Origin: Acidaminococcales bacterium
GTDB lineage: Bacteria; Bacillota; Negativicutes; Acidaminococcales; JAISLQ01
Direction: 5' to 3'
DNA: 55,144 nucleotides
NCBI GenBank assembly: GCA_031290885.1
Contig: JAISLQ010000082.1
Coordinates: 1-55,144 of the forward strand
Part shown: positions 26,680-45,117 of the stretch, piece by piece
Position numbering within the stretch: position 1 is the first letter of the stretch
Layout: each line of letters begins with the position of its first letter
Position numbers and translations under genes: made by a program
The notes under the pieces: model-generated
What the model was told of the DNA's origin: nothing
The model's database searches: none
The model's input: the letters and a program-made list of their open reading frames with translations, nothing else

Positions 26680-27996
26680 ATGGACAAGTTGCTGGCCGGG
26701 GCGTTTATGCCGCATCCGCCCCTGATCATTCCGGAAGTGGGGGAGCGCCACCATGGGCAGGTCGCCGGGACAATCCGGGCGATGAAGGCGGCAAGCGAAC
26801 GGCTGGTTGCCCTCAACCCGCGCACCGTCATTGTTGCCTCTCCGCACGGCGTCCATTTTAACGGCGCGCCCAGCATAGCCTTCGGCCGGCGCATGGAAGG
26901 CGGCATGGAGGATTTTAACGCGCCGGGCTGCCGATTGTCTTTTCCCATAAATCAGCGGCTGGCCGAAACAATATGCATAGCGGCGGAAAACGCCGGAATT
27001 TCCTTATATAAAGCCGGCAAGCCCGCGGAAGAAGCGTCCGTGCCGCCAATAGACTCCGGCGCGTTTGTGCCGCTTTATTATTTGCGCATGGCGGGCTTTG
27101 CCGGGGACATAGTGCATATCTGCCCCGGGTTCATAAGCCTTGAGGCGGCGCTGGCGCTGGGCGAGGCGATCGCCGGCGCGGCGGCGGGAAATGACGCCGT
27201 GCTGATCGGTTCGGGCGACCTTTCGCATTATTTGAAAGATTCGCCGCCTTACGGCCTGCGGCCGGAAGGCGCGGCCTTTGACGCGCTGGCGGTGGAAGCG
27301 ATAAAAGAAAATGACCCCGGCAAATTGCTGGCGCTCGACAGGGAACTGATAGGCAGGGCCGGCGAATGCGGCCTGCGCTCGCTGCTTATATTGCTGGCGG
27401 CGGCAAAGGGTCTTGCCAGTAATTTTTATTCTTACGAAGATACCTTTGGCGTGGGCTATGCCGTGGCCGTCTGGGAAAGGCCGTCCGGGATCGCCCCTTC
27501 CGTTCCTGCCCGGCTGGCCCGCTGGTCTATAGAAAACAGTTTCGCCGATGGGCAAAAAGCCGCCCCCGCTTGGGCCGACGGCCTTAAAGAGCGGGCGGGC
27601 GTGTTTGTTTCCCTGAAAAAAGCGGGCGCTTTGCGCGGCTGCATCGGCACTTTTCTGCCGCAATGCCTTTCTGTCAAAGAAGAAATTTTGCGCAACGCGC
27701 TGTCCGCAGCTTTTTCCGACCCGCGTTTTCCGCCGCTTTCCCGGGATGAATTGCCGGATTTGGAAATATCCGTCGATGTCTTGTCGCCGCCGGAAATGGT
27801 CGGCAGCTTGTCCGAACTTGACGAGAAAAAATACGGCGTCTTGGTAACGGACGGCGCGCGCAGCGGCCTTTTGCTGCCGGATCTCGACGGCGTAAACAGC
27901 GTTGGGGAGCAGCTTGACATTGCTAGGCAAAAAGCCGGCATCGCCCCGGGCGCAAAAGTCGATGTTTATCGTTTTACGGTCAGGCGTTATGCATGA
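26680..27996 (+). CDS. amrA: AmmeMemoRadiSam system protein: LigB/Memo-like domain fused to AMMECR1
   Basis: A 438-residue fusion. The N-terminal part (about 1-265) is a class III extradiol-dioxygenase/Memo-like domain with the metal-type histidines in [15 protein letters not shown] and [12 protein letters not shown]. The C-terminal part (about 270-438) is AMMECR1, with the signature LRGCIGTF and a [21 protein letters not shown]-type segment. Such proteins occur with a dedicated radical SAM enzyme, which follows here and overlaps the stop codon. The system's chemistry is not settled in bacteria. GGAGGAG lies before ATG 26680. Confidence 0.9.
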
Positions 27997-36670: not shown

Positions 36671-37930
36671 TTGGCTGACATAAGACCCTTCCGGGCGCTG
36701 CGGCCGGCGGCGGACAAGGCAAAGGGGATCGCTTCGCTTCCTTATGACGTGATGGACAGGGAAGAAGCGCGCGCCGCGATAAAAAAACAGCCGCTTAGTT
36801 TTTTGCGCGTTACCAGGCCTGACGCCGCTTTCCCTGACGCAATCGGGCAATATGACGGCGCCGTGTACGAAGAGGCGGCCTCCGTTTTTCAAGAGTATCA
36901 GGCGGACGGCCTGCTGCGGACGGAGGCCGAACCGTGTTTTTATATATACAGGCAGAGAATGGACGGGCGCGAACAGACCGGGCTGGTCGCCGCCGCTTCG
37001 GTGGAAGAATATCGCGCCGGCGCGACAAAGAAACACGAACTCACCCGCCCGGACAAGGAAGGCGACCGAGTGCGCCATATAAAATGCCTGGCGGCGCAAA
37101 CCGGGGCCGTGTTTTTGTCTTACAAAAGGGCGCCGGCGGCCGAACTTTTGATCGCGGAGATTGTCGGCAGGACACGCCCTGACTATGACTTTGTCGCCGA
37201 TGACGGCATCGGCCATATTTTTTATACTGTAAGCGCCCCGGCCGATATAGAGGCTCTCCGGCGCGTTTTCGCCCCAATAGGGCCTTTGTATATCGCCGAC
37301 GGGCACCACCGCTGCGCCGCCGCCTTGAGGGTTGCGGACATGGCGCGGGCAAACAATCCCAAGCATACAGGCTCGGAGGAATATAACTACTTTCTCGCGG
37401 CGATCTTTCCTGACGATATGACGCGGATACTTGAATATAACCGGGCCGTGAAGGATCTTAACGGATTGACGGCGGCTGAATTTTTGGCAAAGGCCGGCGA
37501 CAATTTCCTTGTGCAAACAATCGCTTCCCCGGCCAAACCGTCCGCCAGGCACGAGTTTACCATGTGCCTTGAGGGCAAATGGTATAAATTGACGGCAAGA
37601 GGCGGCACGTTTGACGAAAAAGATCTTAGCGGCAGACTGGACGTAAGCATATTGCAGGACAACCTGCTGCGCCCCGTACTGGGAATCCTTGACCCGCGCG
37701 CCGACCAAAGGATAGAGTTCATCGGCGGCATACGCGGCGTAAGCGCCCTGTCCGAACTGGTGGCCGCCGGGAAAGCGGCCGTTGCCTTTTGCCTTTATCC
37801 CACTTCCATGCAAGAGCTTATGGCGGTTGCCGACGCGGGCAAAATAATGCCGCCTAAGTCCACTTGGTTTGAGCCTAAATTGCGCGATGGTTTAGCGGTG
37901 CATTTGCTTGAGGAAGATTTTTTGAAGTGA
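36671..37930 (+). CDS. DUF1015 family protein
   Basis: A 419-residue DUF1015 protein. The family opens with a motif like FRALRPAADKAKGIASLPYDV and contains the histidine-rich IADGHHRCAAAL, both seen here, and ends with a domain including FCLYPTSMQELMAVADAGKI and MPPKSTWFEPKLRDGL. The domain is distantly ParB/Srx-like in the HHR motif and its role is unknown, but the gene is repeatedly found with serine biosynthesis genes. The start is TTG 36671 with GAGGTG upstream. serC follows by 9 bases. Confidence 0.85.
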   Translation: MADIRPFRALRPAADKAKGIASLPYDVMDREEARAAIKKQPLSFLRVTRPDAAFPDAIGQYDGAVYEEAASVFQEYQADGLLRTEAEPCFYIYRQRMDGREQTGLVAAASVEEYRAGATKKHELTRPDKEGDRVRHIKCLAAQTGAVFLSYKRAPAAELLIAEIVGRTRPDYDFVADDGIGHIFYTVSAPADIEALRRVFAPIGPLYIADGHHRCAAALRVADMARANNPKHTGSEEYNYFLAAIFPDDMTRILEYNRAVKDLNGLTAAEFLAKAGDNFLVQTIASPAKPSARHEFTMCLEGKWYKLTARGGTFDEKDLSGRLDVSILQDNLLRPVLGILDPRADQRIEFIGGIRGVSALSELVAAGKAAVAFCLYPTSMQELMAVADAGKIMPPKSTWFEPKLRDGLAVHLLEEDFLK

Positions 37931-37939
37931 GGTTTCAGC

Positions 37940-39028
37940 ATGGCGAGAGTTTTTAATTTCAATCCCGGCCCGGCGACCTTGCCGATGGAAGTGCTGCGGG
38001 AAGCGCAGGCGGAATTTTTGGACTATCAGGATAGCGGCATGTCCATTATCGAAATGAGCCACCGCTCCGCGCCTTACGAAAAAATAAACGACGAGGCGCG
38101 CCAAGACTTGAAAGACTTGCTGGGAACAGGCGACGACTATGAAGTTTTGTTTATGCAAGGCGGCGCCACTATGCAATTTTCCCTTGTCCCGCTCAATCTT
38201 ATAAGGGAGGGCCGGACGGCGGATTACGCGGTAACAGGCGAATTTGCCGCCAGGGCTTTCGCGCAGGCCGCGCAAATAGGCGCGGCCCGTGCCGCAGTTG
38301 ATTTGTCGGGCGAAGGGTTCCGGCGCGCGCCCGCGGCTAACGAACTGCGCTACAGCGACCGGCAGGCCTATCTTCACGTAACTACCAACAACACCATTTT
38401 CGGCACGGCCTGGCGCGAATACCCTGATTTCGGCGTAAAAACATTAGTGGCCGATATGTCGTCAGACTTTCTCAGCCGCCCTTTCGACGTCCGGCAATTT
38501 TCGCTGATTTACGCCGGCGCGCAGAAAAACATAGGCCCGGCGGGAGCGGCGGTGGTCGTGATTAAAAAATCGTTGCTGGACGGCGCGAACGAAAAGCTGC
38601 CGGAATATTTCAGTTACAAGGCGCACGCCAAAAACAATTCCCTATTGAACACTCCGCCGGTTTTTACCGTGTACATGATCGGGAAAATTCTTAAATGGCT
38701 GAAAAACAAGGGCGGCCTGGCGGCTATGGGCAAGCTCTGCTTGCAAAAATCTTCGCTTGTTTACGGCCTCATCGACCGTTATCCCGATTTTTACCGGGGA
38801 CACGCCGAAAAAGGCAGCCGTTCGCTTACCAACGTAACCTTCCGTTTGCCGGATGCGCGGCTGGATGATGCTTTTGTCAGGCAAGCTGCCGCGCAAGGGC
38901 TATCAGGCGTGAAGGGCCATCGCTCGGTCGGAGGCATACGGGTATCCATTTATAATTATATGCCGGTGGAAGGCTGCGAAAGACTGGCGGAATTTATGGA
39001 GGATTTTTACCTTGGCAACCGCCGCTGA
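37940..39028 (+). CDS. serC: Phosphoserine aminotransferase
   Basis: A 362-residue SerC (PLP fold type I), transferring the amino group from glutamate to 3-phosphohydroxypyruvate in serine synthesis. Family features are NFNPGPATLPMEVL at the start, MSIIEMSHRS, LFMQGGATMQFSLVP, and the lysine region LIYAGAQKNIGPAGAAVV. No serA or serB is in view. GAGGTT precedes the ATG. Its last codons overlap possible upstream starts of the next gene. Confidence 0.95.
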   Translation: MARVFNFNPGPATLPMEVLREAQAEFLDYQDSGMSIIEMSHRSAPYEKINDEARQDLKDLLGTGDDYEVLFMQGGATMQFSLVPLNLIREGRTADYAVTGEFAARAFAQAAQIGAARAAVDLSGEGFRRAPAANELRYSDRQAYLHVTTNNTIFGTAWREYPDFGVKTLVADMSSDFLSRPFDVRQFSLIYAGAQKNIGPAGAAVVVIKKSLLDGANEKLPEYFSYKAHAKNNSLLNTPPVFTVYMIGKILKWLKNKGGLAAMGKLCLQKSSLVYGLIDRYPDFYRGHAEKGSRSLTNVTFRLPDARLDDAFVRQAAAQGLSGVKGHRSVGGIRVSIYNYMPVEGCERLAEFMEDFYLGNRR

Positions 39029-39071
39029 TATGGCGGCGCGGCAAAAAGCAAAAGGCAAGGAGGCGTTCGGC

Positions 39072-39932
39072 TTGAATGTTGATTATGACATAGCCGTGGT
39101 CGGCGGCGGGCCGGCAGGCCTTTCCGCCGCGCTCAGCGCGTTGCGGCGGGACAAAAAAACCGTTGTTTTTGACCAGCGCGGCGCAAAGTCCAAACTGGCC
39201 AAGGCGCCGCTCGTCGACAATTACCTCGGCCTGCCCGCAATAAGCGGCCAGGAACTCATGCGCGTTTTTTCCGGGCATGTGAAAACGCGCGGCATACCGA
39301 TACTCGAAGAGAAAATCGTCAATATATATCCCGGCGGGGGCGGCTTCACGCTCATCGCCGGCGACAATGCCTGGCAGTCCGCTTCCGTGGTGTTCGCCGC
39401 CGGCGCCCCCTCCGGGCAGACTTTGCCGGGCGAAAGTGATTTTTTGGGGCGGGGCGTCAGTTACTGCGCTGTCTGCGACGGGCTGCTCTTTCGCGGCAAG
39501 AAGGTTGCCATAATCGCCGCCACGTCCGGCAGCCGGGAAGATACATCCTTTCTGGCCGGGCTTTGCCGGGAAATATTATATTTTCCATTGTACGCGGGCG
39601 AGCATCCGCAGCATCCCAACCTGAAAACGCTCAAGGAACTGCCCAAAGAAATAACCGGCGCGGATACCGTCGGCGCGATAAAGACGGACAAAAACAGCCA
39701 CGCGGTGGACGGCGTGTTTATTTTCCGCGCGAACGCGCCGCCTGACAGCATTTTGCCCGATTTGGCGCTCAAAGATAATTTCGTCCGGACCGACAGTTTA
39801 ATGCGGACGAATGTTCCCGGCTTCTTCGCGGCCGGCGACTGCACCGGCCAACCCTGGCAAATCAGCCGGGCCACGGGGCAGGGGCAGATAGCCGCCCTCA
39901 GTGCCGCCTCTTACATAGACGGGCATAACTGA
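39072..39932 (+). CDS. Thioredoxin reductase-like flavoprotein lacking the NADPH motif (FFTR-like)
   Basis: A 286-residue protein with the TrxB fold. The FAD-binding GGGPAGLSAA is at residues 11-20, the redox pair is C132-C135 (YCAVCDG) and the C-terminal FAD motif FFAAGDCTGQPWQISRATGQG is complete. In contrast, the site that should hold the NADPH-binding GGGxSA reads VAIIAATSGSREDTS (146-158), and no HRRxxxR follows. This is the pattern of the ferredoxin-dependent flavin thioredoxin reductases of clostridia and some cyanobacteria. TTG 39072 follows AAGGAGG by 8 bases; the frame could extend to 39012 within serC. Probably reduces thioredoxin using ferredoxin (inference). Confidence 0.82.
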   Translation: MNVDYDIAVVGGGPAGLSAALSALRRDKKTVVFDQRGAKSKLAKAPLVDNYLGLPAISGQELMRVFSGHVKTRGIPILEEKIVNIYPGGGGFTLIAGDNAWQSASVVFAAGAPSGQTLPGESDFLGRGVSYCAVCDGLLFRGKKVAIIAATSGSREDTSFLAGLCREILYFPLYAGEHPQHPNLKTLKELPKEITGADTVGAIKTDKNSHAVDGVFIFRANAPPDSILPDLALKDNFVRTDSLMRTNVPGFFAAGDCTGQPWQISRATGQGQIAALSAASYIDGHN

Positions 39933-40043: not shown

Positions 40044-40697
40044 TCAGATTCTTTTGGGAAAAAGCGCAAAAAGATCCGGCGGCGGCTCGGATGCAAATAC
40101 ATAATCAGGCCGGGCTTCGGCGCATTTTTCCACGGCGGCTTTCAGGTCGTAGTGAACCTGCCATTTGGCCTGTTTAAGGCTGTCGCCGTGAAGCCTGAGC
40201 AAATAAGCCGGATGATAGGTGGTAATGCATGATGCGCCGGATTTGCCGACAAACCACTGCCCGCGTTCCTTGGTGATGCGCTTGTCCGGCGAGCCGAGGT
40301 AATGCAGGGCCACGCTGCCGAGCGCTATCACCACGGCCGGGCGGATGATTTCCAACTCCAGGCTTAGCCAGCGGTCGGCGCAAAAAGCGGCGGCGGCGAC
40401 CGTCGGCGTCCGGTTGTTTTCCGGGCGGCATTTCACCGTATTGGTCGTCAGTATGCGATCGCGCGTTACGCCGACCGAGGCGAGCGCCTTGTCCAGCAGC
40501 TGCCCGGAAGGGCCAATCAGCGGGCAGCCGTATTCGTCCTCTACCCGGCCCGGCCCTTCGCCGACTATGACCAACGGGCTGGCGGCATCGCCGTACCAGC
40601 CGACCGGAGCTATGCAACCGGCGCGCAGTTCGCATTCCGAACAGGCTTTCAGTTCCTGGCCCAACGCTTCCAGCGCCCGGGCGGCGTCTATTTTCAT
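40044..40697 (-). CDS. Family 4 (Fe-S) uracil-DNA glycosylase
   Basis: A 217-residue family 4 uracil-DNA glycosylase, which removes uracil from deaminated DNA. It has the Fe-S cysteines (CSECELRAGC near residue 18-27 and two further ones) and the motifs VIVGEGPGRVEDEYG, PLIGPSGQLLDKAL, TNTVKCRPENNRTP and TTYHPAYLLR. ATG 40697 follows GCGAGG by 9 bases; an ATG at 40706 overlaps that site. It lies alone, convergent with the flavoprotein gene. Fe-S UDGs are common in anaerobes and thermophiles. Confidence 0.9.
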   Translation of the reverse strand: MKIDAARALEALGQELKACSECELRAGCIAPVGWYGDAASPLVIVGEGPGRVEDEYGCPLIGPSGQLLDKALASVGVTRDRILTTNTVKCRPENNRTPTVAAAAFCADRWLSLELEIIRPAVVIALGSVALHYLGSPDKRITKERGQWFVGKSGASCITTYHPAYLLRLHGDSLKQAKWQVHYDLKAAVEKCAEARPDYVFASEPPPDLFALFPKRI

Positions 40698-40812
40698 AAT
40701 GTCCATCCTCGCAAGTTGCTTTGGCCTACAGGAAACCTCCAACAATCCATCGCCATAGCAAGCGGTTATCAAAAGCTCCCTATATATTCGCCCAATACAC
40801 TTTGCAATCCTT

Positions 40813-40859: not shown

Positions 40860-40878
40860 GGGTAAGGAAGTGTACGAT

Positions 40879-42144
40879 ATGCTTGACATCAAATTCATAC
40901 GGGAAAATACCGCCATAGTGGAAGATGCGCTGAAAAAACGCCGTATGCCGATGGCGCTGGATGAATTTCTGCGTTTGGACAAAGAACGGCGCTCTCTTTT
41001 GATAACAGTGGAAAATCTGAAAAGCGAACGCAACCAAGTTTCGCAGGAGATAAGCAGGCTGAAAAAAACGGGCGCCGATGCCGCCGCCAAAATAGCTTCC
41101 ATGCGCGAGACAGGCGATGCCATCGCCGGCTATGACGCCAAATTGCGGGAGATTGAGGAGAGTTTGCGGGAGATTGCCCTGCGGCTGCCCAATATCCCCA
41201 ATGAGGCCGTGCCGCCGGGTCAGGATGAACGCGACAATCCGCAGGTGCGCAAATGGGGCGCCGCGCCGGATTTCCCCTTCCCGCCAAAACCTCACTGGGA
41301 AATCGGGGAACGGCTCAACATACTGGATTTTGAGCGGGCGGGCAAGGTGGCCGGCGCCAGGTTCGTTTTTTATCGCGGCTTAGGCGCGCGCCTGGAACGC
41401 GCGCTGATCAATTTCATGCTTGACTTGCATACCAAAGAACACGGCTATACAGAGGTTTTCCCGCCGTTCATCGTCAATGGAGCCAGCATGACCGGCACTG
41501 GGCAGCTGCCTAAATTCGCCGCCGACGCTTTCCGGCTGGAAAACAGCGATTATTATCTGGTCCCTACGGCCGAAGTGCCTGTAACCAATATGCACCGGGG
41601 CGAAATATTGGCGGAAAGCTGCCTGCCGCTTTATTACGCCGCCTACAGCGCCTGTTTCAGGAGCGAGGCGGGCGCCGCCGGGCGCGACACGCGCGGGCTC
41701 ATACGCCTGCATCAATTCAACAAGGTGGAACTGGTGAAATTTTCCCTGCCGGAAAATTCCTGGGCGGAACTGGAAAAACTGACCGCCGACGCGGAAAGCG
41801 TGCTGCGGCTCTTGGAGCTTCCCTACCGCACAGTAAAATTATGCGCGGGCGACTTGGGTTTTGCTTCCGCCCTGACTTATGACATAGAAGTCTGGCTGCC
41901 CAGCGCCGGCTGTTACCGCGAAATATCCTCCTGCTCAAACTTTGTCGATTTTCAGGCGCGCCGGGCGGACATACGATTTCGACGCGCCGGCGGCAAACCG
42001 GAATTTGTCCATACCCTGAACGGTTCAGGGCTGGCGATCGGGCGCGCCGTCTCGGCTATTTTGGAAAACTGCCAGCAGAAAGACGGCTCTGTGCGCGTAC
42101 CCCAAATACTGCAGGAATACATGGGCACGGACACGATAAAATAA
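40879..42144 (+). CDS. serS: Seryl-tRNA synthetase
   Basis: A 421-residue class IIa synthetase charging tRNA-Ser. The N-terminal coiled-coil arm (residues 30-105) is seen as Lys/Glu-rich heptads, motif 2 contains [15 protein letters not shown], and motif 3 contains [20 protein letters not shown] 40879 follows AAGGAAG at 8 bases; a GTG at 40870 overlaps this site. It is a single-gene unit with its own promoter, matching the tRNA-Ser gene elsewhere in the window only in function. Confidence 0.96.
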
Positions 42145-42297: not shown

Positions 42298-42374
42298 TTA
42301 TACGATATTAAACATTTTGGTAAATAATGCTAAACATAGCTGCCTTGAAATACCGATCCGAAAGGAGCGTTGAT

Positions 42375-43550
42375 ATGAAAAACAGCAATTATTTCCGTTT
42401 GACGCAAAATGCCGTAAAACAACTGGCCGATGTGTATGATACGCCATTTTTGGTATTGTCCCTTGAACAGATCGAAAACAATTACCGGCTTTTGCAAAAA
42501 TACATGCCGCAGGTCAAAATACACTACGCGGTCAAAGCAAATCCCGACAAGAATATAGTCGCCGCAATAAACAGGCTTGGCGGTTGTTTCGATGTTGCGT
42601 CCGGCGGCGAAATAACCGAACTGGCCGCCTTAAACATTGCCAGCGACCGGATGCTTTACGCCAATCCCTTTAAAACGGATGCGGGGCTAAAAGCCTGCCG
42701 CCGCTATGGCGTGAACAAGTTTACCCTTGACAGCCGGACCGAAATAGACAAATTGGCGCAATGCTTCCCGGGCGCCGGCGTCCTTTTGCGCCTGCGCATA
42801 GACAATACCGGCGCGGTCGTCGATTTAAACAAGAAATTCGGCGCGCGGCCGGAACAGATATTGCCGCTTTTAAAATACGCGGCCGCCGCCGGGCTCAATG
42901 TCCTAGGGCTGTGCTTTCACGTTGGCAGCCAGACGCTTTCGGCCGCCCCCTACATCCGCGCCCTGAAAAAAAGCCGCGAGTTGTTTGACGCGGCGCGGCT
43001 GGAGGGCTACCATCTGAAAACGCTGGACATTGGCGGCGGCTACCCTGTCCCGAGCATGATCGACGATGTGGACATAGCCGGGCTGCTCACAAAAATAAAC
43101 GAATGTCTGGAAAACCTTTTCCCCGATACGGAAATCTGGTCGGAACCCGGGCGGTTTGTCTGCGCCACCGCAGTGAACATGCTGACCAAAGTGATTGGCG
43201 TTACCGAGCGCAACGGCCAGCCGTGGTATTTTCTGGACGAAGGGGTTTACGGCGCTTTCTCCGGCGTCCTTTTTGACCATTGGGACTATGAATTTGTCAG
43301 TTACAAAAACGGCCCGGGCCTTTTGTCCACTTTCGCCGGCCCCAGCTGCGATTCTTTGGATGTGATCTGCTGCGGCCGAGCGTCCCCGCCCCTTCTGCCG
43401 AACGACATATTGCTTGTGCCGGCCTGCGGCGCGTATTCATCGGCATCGGCGACCAGTTTCAACGGTTTCGCCAAAGCGCAGACCATTGTTTGGGAAGAAG
43501 CGCGGGAAAAACTCAGCCTCGCGGAATTTTGCTTCGCTCCGGCCGTTTGA
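42375..43550 (+). CDS. Fold-III PLP decarboxylase, lysine/ornithine type
   Basis: A 391-residue enzyme of the ornithine/DAP/arginine decarboxylase 2 family. The PLP lysine is K54 (YAVKANPD), with ICFHVGSQ-like LCFHVGSQTLSAAPYI, DIGGGYPVP, SEPGRFVCATAVN and the active-site cysteine in GPSCDSLDV. The layout closely resembles the dual lysine/ornithine decarboxylase of Selenomonas ruminantium, where cadaverine or putrescine is attached to peptidoglycan. Whether this protein uses Lys, Orn or both is open. ATG 42375 follows AAAGGAG. It has a palindromic operator and ends at a strong hairpin. Confidence 0.88.
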   Translation: MKNSNYFRLTQNAVKQLADVYDTPFLVLSLEQIENNYRLLQKYMPQVKIHYAVKANPDKNIVAAINRLGGCFDVASGGEITELAALNIASDRMLYANPFKTDAGLKACRRYGVNKFTLDSRTEIDKLAQCFPGAGVLLRLRIDNTGAVVDLNKKFGARPEQILPLLKYAAAAGLNVLGLCFHVGSQTLSAAPYIRALKKSRELFDAARLEGYHLKTLDIGGGYPVPSMIDDVDIAGLLTKINECLENLFPDTEIWSEPGRFVCATAVNMLTKVIGVTERNGQPWYFLDEGVYGAFSGVLFDHWDYEFVSYKNGPGLLSTFAGPSCDSLDVICCGRASPPLLPNDILLVPACGAYSSASATSFNGFAKAQTIVWEEAREKLSLAEFCFAPAV

Positions 43551-43594: not shown

Positions 43595-43845
43595 CTGTTT
43601 GGCTATTTCCCCGCCTGTTTTCCAGGTTTTCGGCCGTGCCATGTCCTTGCGGATTTGGCATTGCGCTTTTGGGCCGATACTGTTCCCAAATCAAAAGTTG
43701 CCTGAAATCCTTTTAAGGCCGGCGCCCGCTCTTGCCGGCGAAAGGCATCCGCGCTTGGGTGCCCCTTCTTCCAGCGCGGACAAAACCGCAAAAGGCGCGG
43801 CCGCGCCGGCAGCGGCCGCCCGCCATAACGCAGGAGGCTCGATTA

Positions 43846-45117
43846 ATGAAAAAACCGTTTGTCAGCAAGGAAAAACTCGAGGAAATTATAAAGCAATATC
43901 CCACCCCCTTTTATCTTTATGACGAAAAGGGGATCAGGGAAACCGCGCGCGCGCTGCTAAAAGCGTTTTCCTGGAACGCGGGCTACCGGGAATATTTCGC
44001 CGTCAAGGCCACGCCCAATCCGGCGATCCTTAAAATCTTGCGGGAAGAAGGCTGCGGGGTGGACTGCTCAAGCCTGACCGAACTCATGCTGGCCAAAGCC
44101 GCCGGTTTCAGCGGCCGGGACATAATGTTTTCCTCCAACGCCACCCCCGCCGAGGAATTTGTCTATGCCAGAAAAATCGGCGCCATCATCAATCTCGACG
44201 ACTTTACCCATATAGATTTTCTCGAGCGATGCGCCGGACTGCCGGAGACGATCTGCTGCCGTTTTAACCCCGGCGGGGAGTTCGCCATACATACCGCCAT
44301 CATGGACAGGCCCAAAGACGCCAAATACGGTTTTACCAAAGGGCAGCTTAAAGAAGGGTTCGCTGTTTTGCAAAGAAAAGGCGTCATGGAGTTCGGTCTG
44401 CACGCTTTTTTGGCCAGCAACACCCTTACCAACGAATATTATCCCACGCTGGCGGCGGAGCTGTTTGCAACCGCCGCCTGGCTGAAAGAGCAAACCGGCG
44501 TGGCGGCCGCCTTCATAAACCTTTCCGGGGGAATAGGCATACCCTACCGGCCGGAGGACAAACCAAACGACATAATGGAAATAGGAAGGTTGGTCAAAGG
44601 CGTATACGAGCGGATACTGGTGCCGGCCGGCATGGGGGGCGCGGCGCTTTTCACCGAATTGGGGCGTTTTGTGCTGGGTCCTCACGGTTGCCTGGTCGCC
44701 ACCGCCATACACAAAAAAAATATTTACAAAAAATATATAGGGCTCGATGCCTGCGCCGCCAATCTGATGCGCCCGGCCATGTACGGCGCTTATCACCATA
44801 TCACGGTGGCCGGCAAGGAAAACGAGGCGGCGTCCGCCGTCTATGACATAACCGGCTCTTTGTGCGAAAACAATGACAAATTCGCCATAGACAGAAAATT
44901 GCCGCCGATCGAAATCGGCGATCGCCTTGTCATCCATGACGCGGGCGCGCACGGTTTCGCCATGGGGTACAACTACAACGGCAAATTGCGCTCCGCCGAA
45001 TTGCTCCTCAAAGAGGACGGTTCTGTCCGGCTCATCCGCCGCGCCGAAACGCCGGAGGATTATTTTGCCACCTTGAAAATTTCCGGGCTTTTTGACGACA
45101 TGGAAAGTCTGCGGTGA
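43846..45117 (+). CDS. lysA: Diaminopimelate decarboxylase
   Basis: A 423-residue LysA-type fold-III decarboxylase that removes CO2 from meso-diaminopimelate to form lysine. The PLP lysine is K54 (YFAVKATPNP); GCGVDCSSLTELMLAKAAGF, INLSGGIGIPYRPEDKP and TELGRFVLGPHGCLV follow, and ITGSLCENNDKFAID carries the cysteine that helps the active site. It belongs to a subgroup whose sequence differs from standard LysA, so a related substrate is possible. ATG 43846 follows CAGGAGG. An in-frame start at 43732 adds unlikely residues. The previous gene encodes another fold-III decarboxylase. Confidence 0.87.
   Translation: MKKPFVSKEKLEEIIKQYPTPFYLYDEKGIRETARALLKAFSWNAGYREYFAVKATPNPAILKILREEGCGVDCSSLTELMLAKAAGFSGRDIMFSSNATPAEEFVYARKIGAIINLDDFTHIDFLERCAGLPETICCRFNPGGEFAIHTAIMDRPKDAKYGFTKGQLKEGFAVLQRKGVMEFGLHAFLASNTLTNEYYPTLAAELFATAAWLKEQTGVAAAFINLSGGIGIPYRPEDKPNDIMEIGRLVKGVYERILVPAGMGGAALFTELGRFVLGPHGCLVATAIHKKNIYKKYIGLDACAANLMRPAMYGAYHHITVAGKENEAASAVYDITGSLCENNDKFAIDRKLPPIEIGDRLVIHDAGAHGFAMGYNYNGKLRSAELLLKEDGSVRLIRRAETPEDYFATLKISGLFDDMESLR

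Follow-up and report, generated by a model that had tools for sequence, protein, structure and literature searches.

What reduces a thioredoxin reductase (TrxR)-like flavoprotein that has no recognizable site for NADPH, and what does such a protein reduce in its turn? The question is raised by one gene in the window, by which we mean the whole 55,144-nucleotide stretch of DNA that was analysed. A preliminary description of this DNA had assigned the gene to the NADPH-independent, ferredoxin-linked flavin thioredoxin reductases (FFTRs). We consider it likely that it encodes a clostridial-type FFTR, and one that is probably the sole thioredoxin reductase of this bacterium, whose order-level relatives are Negativicutes. 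The reading frame and its coordinates are correct, the stop codon ending at 39932, and the features of the region are collected in Table 1. An Rfam scan gave no match save one distant tRNA; what was found in searches for promoters and terminators is of doubtful value.

Table 1. Positions, strands and supporting evidence for the putative FFTR gene, its motifs and its neighbours in the window
Feature	Coordinates	Strand	Remarks and evidence
DUF1015 gene	36671..37930	+	9 nt before serC; PF06245
serC, phosphoserine transaminase	37940..39028	+	43 nt upstream of the putative FFTR gene; NCBIfam TIGR01364 above cut-off
Shine-Dalgarno sequence AAGGAGG	39057..39063	+	8-nt spacing to the TTG at 39072; from sequence
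Putative FFTR gene	39072..39932	+	286 residues, TTG start; phmmer vs PDB 6gnc 4e-68; tree clade 100/100
FAD motif 1, GGGPAG	39102..39119	+	Residues 11-16; alignment
Redox-active CxxC, CAVC	39465..39476	+	Residues 132-135, within GRGVSYCAVCDG; alignment
AATSGS at the NTR GGGxxA site	39516..39533	+	Residues 149-154, NADPH pyrophosphate loop lost; alignment
PLY at the NTR HRR position	39585..39593	+	Residues 172-174, followed by a deletion of ~8 residues; alignment
FAD motif 2, GDCTGQPWQ	39834..39860	+	Residues 255-263; alignment
Uracil-DNA glycosylase family gene	40044..40772	-	Between the putative FFTR gene and the serS-like gene; PF03167
serS-like gene	40870..42144	+	Common neighbour of this FFTR lineage; synteny
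lysA-like decarboxylase gene	42327..43550	+	Also common in the neighbourhood; TIGR01048 below cut-off; synteny

The protein has a two-domain FAD architecture, and in the alignment the CxxC and both FAD motifs (GGGPAG, CAVC and GDCTGQPWQ) are all present, as had been claimed. The GRG of the thioredoxin-binding motif is kept as well, and a C-terminal tail is absent, as it is from the C. acetobutylicum enzyme CaFFTR2. The alignment also bears out the loss of the NADPH site, with AATSGS replacing GGGxxA and PLY replacing HRR. Neither GxGxx[A/G] nor an HRR-like triplet was found in the protein or in any of the rows of its clade (25/25), whereas the 27 TrxB-type rows of relatives, which served as a control in the same alignment, have GxGxx[A/G] without exception (27/27) and an HRR-like triplet, defined by a loose pattern, in 18. 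As judged from the aligned sequences, loss of the NADPH motifs is a feature of the clade and not an accident of a single sequence.

Among solved structures the best matches by phmmer are the FFTRs of C. acetobutylicum (6gnc, 6gna and 6gnd, at 233, 229 and 224 bits, respectively). A TrxR follows next with 138 bits, and the Gloeobacter FFTR 5j60 scores 106 bits. The sequence match to the clostridial enzymes is full-length, and the fold search gives identities of 39% and 37% to the two of them. A 70-row maximum-likelihood tree, from which one locus with a gene split by a stop codon (L004) and identical duplicates were excluded and in which rows were cut to 330 residues, joins the protein with 6gnc, 6gna and 25 relatives in a 28-row clade at 100/100. 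The branch leading to it is long (0.87), and the tree program warns that its precise position next to the two Clostridium sequences may be artefactual. Because the C. acetobutylicum FFTRs are top-scoring, the clade is supported at 100/100 and the motifs agree, the protein resembles the FFTRs as a class. Membership of the clostridial type is thus well supported by sequence and phylogeny, and from it we infer dependence on ferredoxin.

NCBIfam places the protein in the TrxR superfamily, and one might ask whether it is an ordinary NADPH-dependent TrxB with diverged motifs. The fold is indeed common to the NADPH-dependent enzymes (NTRs), and among crystal structures the model of the protein fits best on NTRs that are in the flavin-oxidising conformation, but both NADPH motifs are lost in the protein and in all 25 clade rows, the TIGR01292 (NCBIfam) score of 180 bits is far under the cut-off of 343, and a tree in which the protein is constrained to group with the 27 TrxB-type rows is worse by 38.4 log-likelihood units (p-AU 0.001). 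On motif loss, family score and AU test this candidate was ruled out, and we regard it as scarcely credible; the grouping with NADPH-type TrxB that the preliminary description had named as its own counter-test is rejected by the tree.

FFTRs are homodimers of open, FR-like conformation. The AlphaFold model (pLDDT 81.5, pTM 0.66, built on 11 rows) is a monomer with the two domains of a TrxR in an NTR-like arrangement. In a Foldseek search ranked by E-value, its leading matches are the six FFTR chains from C. acetobutylicum, with a TM of ~0.5 and an rmsd of ~16. NTR crystals superpose better, with a TM of ~0.7; the VIA-align Z is 26.8 for the best of them and 22.7 for 6gnc (rmsd 15.7). We read this conflict between E-value and superposition in the predicted structure as domain rotation; the model does not tell an FFTR from an NTR.

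The genome comprises 2.13 Mb in 85 contigs and is 95.25% complete. No second TrxR-like gene was found in it: with TIGR01292 the protein scores 176 bits and the next match, a partial one, 53 bits, and a search of the protein against its own genome returned itself and one 19-bit fragment, nothing else. The catalytic subunit of the iron-sulfur FTR (FeThRed_B, PF02943) was likewise not found there. At this completeness an NTR may have been overlooked. The genome encodes one TrxA, with the active site WCAPC (contig C68), and a WCPPC-bearing protein beside another frame, which we take to be TlpA-like and CcdA-like, respectively. A 55-codon frame on contig C6 specifies a clostridial-type 2[4Fe-4S] ferredoxin, and PFOR is present on contig C72 (1887 bits).

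By analogy with known FFTRs, the chain from pyruvate through PFOR, ferredoxin and FFTR to TrxA would be complete in this genome. PFOR, for example, would charge the 2[4Fe-4S] ferredoxin from pyruvate, and the reduced ferredoxin would pass single electrons to the FAD of the protein. FADH2 would then reduce the C132-C135 disulfide after domain rotation, and the resulting dithiol would reduce the WCAPC thioredoxin. Since both NADPH-binding motifs are gone, NADPH should play no part in this cycle. The electron donor, thioredoxin as the substrate and essentiality of the protein are all proposals. The earlier suggestion that thiol redox control in this organism rests on ferredoxin is strengthened by the fact that no other TrxR or FTR was found in the genome; the use of ferredoxin itself we infer.

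Relatives of this bacterium carry reductases of another kind. Clade B, which comprises 15 tree rows (L061-L069, L071-L073, L075, L077 and L096), retains GxGxxA in every one of them, with T[N/D]G where HRR would stand; the best PDB match of the one member that was searched is 5nii, presumably DvTRi, at 201 bits. In sequence this pattern resembles the TRi of Desulfovibrio vulgaris, and in several genomes (e.g. G016, G018 and G023) no TrxR other than that of clade B was found. The authors of the DvTRi work suggest flavodoxin over ferredoxin as its reductant (PMC5627308), and our protein might similarly be an NADPH-independent TrxR whose donor is not ferredoxin, be it flavodoxin, another flavoprotein, a deazaflavin or a low-molecular carrier. 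It is not of the TRi type, however: it has no T[N/D/Q]G and no TQ/NGK, the motif that replaces HRRD in TRi, the aligned sequence being FPLYAGEHP, and it scores 233 bits against 6gnc vs 101 against 5nii. A clostridial-type ferredoxin is, moreover, encoded in the genome, and deazaflavin-dependent TRs are described as confined to deeply rooted methanogens (PMC5627308). A donor other than ferredoxin is accordingly rather unlikely in our judgement, and ferredoxin is preferred.

The DUF1015, serC and FFTR genes follow one another on the same strand, 9 and 43 nt apart, and are possibly transcribed together. No adjacent serA was noticed beside the DUF1015-serC pair (36671-39028). The preliminary description took the FFTR gene to be coupled to serC/DUF1015, but this adjacency proved to be local to the window. 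By flank synteny, neither serC nor DUF1015 lies near the gene in any of 27 other loci of its clade, the flanks being mostly 4-5 kb long, shorter on one side in L003, L013, L015, L016, L017, L018, L076 and L094, and including those of the split gene L004. Functional coupling as a general feature was rejected on this count (0/27), and for the same reason we do not tie the gene to serine synthesis. Outside the clade, a single locus, L062 of clade B, has serC within a few kb, and a fragment is present in L072.

The neighbour that the lineage does share is the serS-like gene, presumed to be serS from its sequence. It is adjacent or a few genes off in 15 of the 27 other loci, and in the window it stands one gene further on. 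The 15 serS-linked loci are all 13 of the CxxC-less loci examined (two of them from one isolate), which are described below, and the CxxC-bearing L074 and L005. Beyond serS the window contains tandem diaminopimelate-decarboxylase-like genes (42327-43550 and 43732-45117) which score 184 and 284 bits, both under the NCBIfam lysA cut-off of 298. Elsewhere in the window one frame (26680-27996) contains both AMMECR1 (PF01871) and a LigB-like dioxygenase domain (PF02900).

The clade is carried by 29 of the 63 genomes of the order. Scored by motif, the CxxC is intact in 17 of these 29, a count in which the gene of G057 is included in spite of its in-frame TAA, and it has been lost in the remaining 12. 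An FFTR gene broken by an in-frame stop was noted in L004 and L104 (G057), which are maybe the same contig or close relatives. The CxxC-less loci (L006-L018, L107-L114, L116-L118, L122 and L129) belong to Phascolarctobacterium and its kin. In the 70-row tree they form a single clade of 12 rows at 100/100, nested within the FFTR clade, whose members are Phascolarctobacterium and one Negativicutes lineage (L014). The residues found in place of the CxxC are CAKV, CAFV, CAKI, CATR, CTHG or SAKV; Ser takes the place of C132 in L017, in L018 and in each of the two G046 copies. C165 and C257, considered as a new cysteine pair in these proteins, are invariant in an 11-row alignment, and the cysteine of WQC is present in part of the clade only.

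Because of the serS synteny we regard the CxxC-less genes as positional orthologues of the gene in the window. Their frames are open and their FAD motifs intact, and dN/dS is 0.02-0.11 across the eight CxxC-less pairs that gave a value, with dS high in several and a ninth pair saturated. These orthologues are under purifying selection and are not debris. The gut bacterium P. faecium DSM 14760 is among those with a disulfide-free orthologue; among solved structures the P. faecium protein matches CaFFTR2 best (231 bits), and in fold searches its model finds the same structures as that of our protein. Since the clade includes twelve CxxC-less genomes, function has probably shifted within the very lineage to which the gene in the window belongs. 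Our best guess is that the CxxC-less orthologue is a ferredoxin-linked flavoprotein with an electron acceptor other than the CxxC. No description of CxxC-less FFTR orthologues was found in literature searches on thioredoxin in Negativicutes, Phascolarctobacterium and Acidaminococc- and on CxxC-less TrxR-like flavoproteins, subscription papers being outside their scope.

It could be argued that thioredoxin reduction is gradually being abandoned in the whole lineage, such that our protein, its CxxC notwithstanding, already serves the disulfide-free role of the Phascolarctobacterium orthologues. The purifying selection on those orthologues, together with their having the same serS neighbour, would fit such a drift, as would the WCAPC of the single TrxA where WCGPC might be looked for. 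Against it, the protein retains both the CxxC and the thioredoxin-binding GRG, and no other reductase for TrxA was found in its genome. We hold this to be very improbable and keep to a thioredoxin-reducing FFTR for the gene in the window.

With TIGR01292 matches counted at E up to 1e-42, eight genomes have only a gene of this clade. The gene bears a CxxC in four of them (G000, which is the genome under study, G002, G032 and the 72% complete G051) and is CxxC-less in the other four (G004, G011, G019 and G030); in the latter four a thioredoxin reductase of known type was not found, and the CxxC-less protein stands alone. FTR (PF02943) was not found in any of ten genomes tested, and these four CxxC-less cases are without it. 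A further genome of the same genus, G001, was considered as an FFTR-free case and rejected, as it is 75% complete, a contig ends within its serS and the place of the gene is missing. The TrxA active site is WCGPC in G002 and G032, as in the comparison genomes G008, G010 and G012. It is WCGHC in G004, a motif which is redox-competent elsewhere, and WCVPC in G011 and G030; a thioredoxin was not found in G019, and G051 yields a TlpA-like protein only. The altered thioredoxins of genomes with only the CxxC-less protein are suggestive, the genomes being few.

We would give about an even chance to the proposal that the lineage exists in two states. In a few genomes (the four CxxC-bearing ones listed above, G051 being incomplete) FFTR would be the sole TrxR. 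In Phascolarctobacterium and its kin the catalytic disulfide would have been lost once, leaving a conserved, ferredoxin-linked flavoprotein that lacks the CxxC as well as the NADPH site and has a new function; here G004, G011, G019 and G030 would be without a TrxR of known type, their thioredoxin being altered or not found.

If the protein is the only TrxR of its bacterium, the thiol redox state of a presumed anaerobe would depend on the ferredoxin pool, and NADPH could not stand in for it. Of greatest interest is the conserved orthologue of Phascolarctobacterium that has no disulfide: what does a flavoprotein with the TrxR fold, but with no CxxC and no NADPH site, do in common gut bacteria, and by which route is TrxA re-reduced in those genomes where no other reductase was found?

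Several known systems bear comparison. According to PMC8469568 (Table A1), 6GNC is CaFFTR2, 6GND its covalent complex with Trx2, and 5J60 and 6XTF are the Gloeobacter FFTR. The C. acetobutylicum FFTRs (6GNC, 6GNA/6GNB and 6GND) are the full-length best match and share with our protein the CxxC, the FAD motifs, the lack of NADPH motifs and the tail-less C-terminus; in contrast to them, it comes from a relative of the Acidaminococcaceae, has no adjoining trxA and is apparently without an NTR in its genome. FFTR is reported as the sole TR of Gloeobacter and Prochlorococcus, with ferredoxin as the donor and no NADPH site (PMC12796991, PMC9025218); the flavin of the Gloeobacter enzyme has a potential of -448 mV (PMC12796991). 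Our protein, too, lacks the NADPH site and is apparently the sole TR, but it is without the C-terminal tail and flavin-stacking Trp of the cyanobacterial enzyme (5J60, 6XTF) and matches it at 106 bits only.

Most Negativicutes possess two to four TrxBs, NTRs along with non-NTRs that are probably FFTRs (PMC10880999). The C. difficile FFTRs TrxB1 and TrxB4 are of the non-NTR type without NAD(P)H motifs (PMC10880999), as is our protein; they adjoin trxA and have NTRs alongside, whereas it stands apart from trxA and alone. The TRi of D. vulgaris is an NAD(P)H-independent TR with TQ/NGK at the HRR position, and TRi is the sole TR in three thermophilic clostridia (PMC5627308). It resembles our protein as an NAD(P)H-independent TrxR of anaerobes, but its TQ/NGK type is that of clade B and not of the gene in the window. 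Since FFTR-only cyanobacteria, TRi-only clostridia and the prediction of FFTRs in Negativicutes have already been described, the enzyme is of a known kind, and so is the sole-reductase state; what is added here is an apparently sole FFTR in this order. Lastly, the ferredoxin/flavodoxin-NADP reductases of the YumC type (FdRs) have, like the Phascolarctobacterium orthologues, a TrxR fold without a CxxC; according to PMC5627308, FdRs keep a similar NADPH-binding motif, whereas the Phascolarctobacterium orthologues have lost the CxxC and the NADPH motifs alike.
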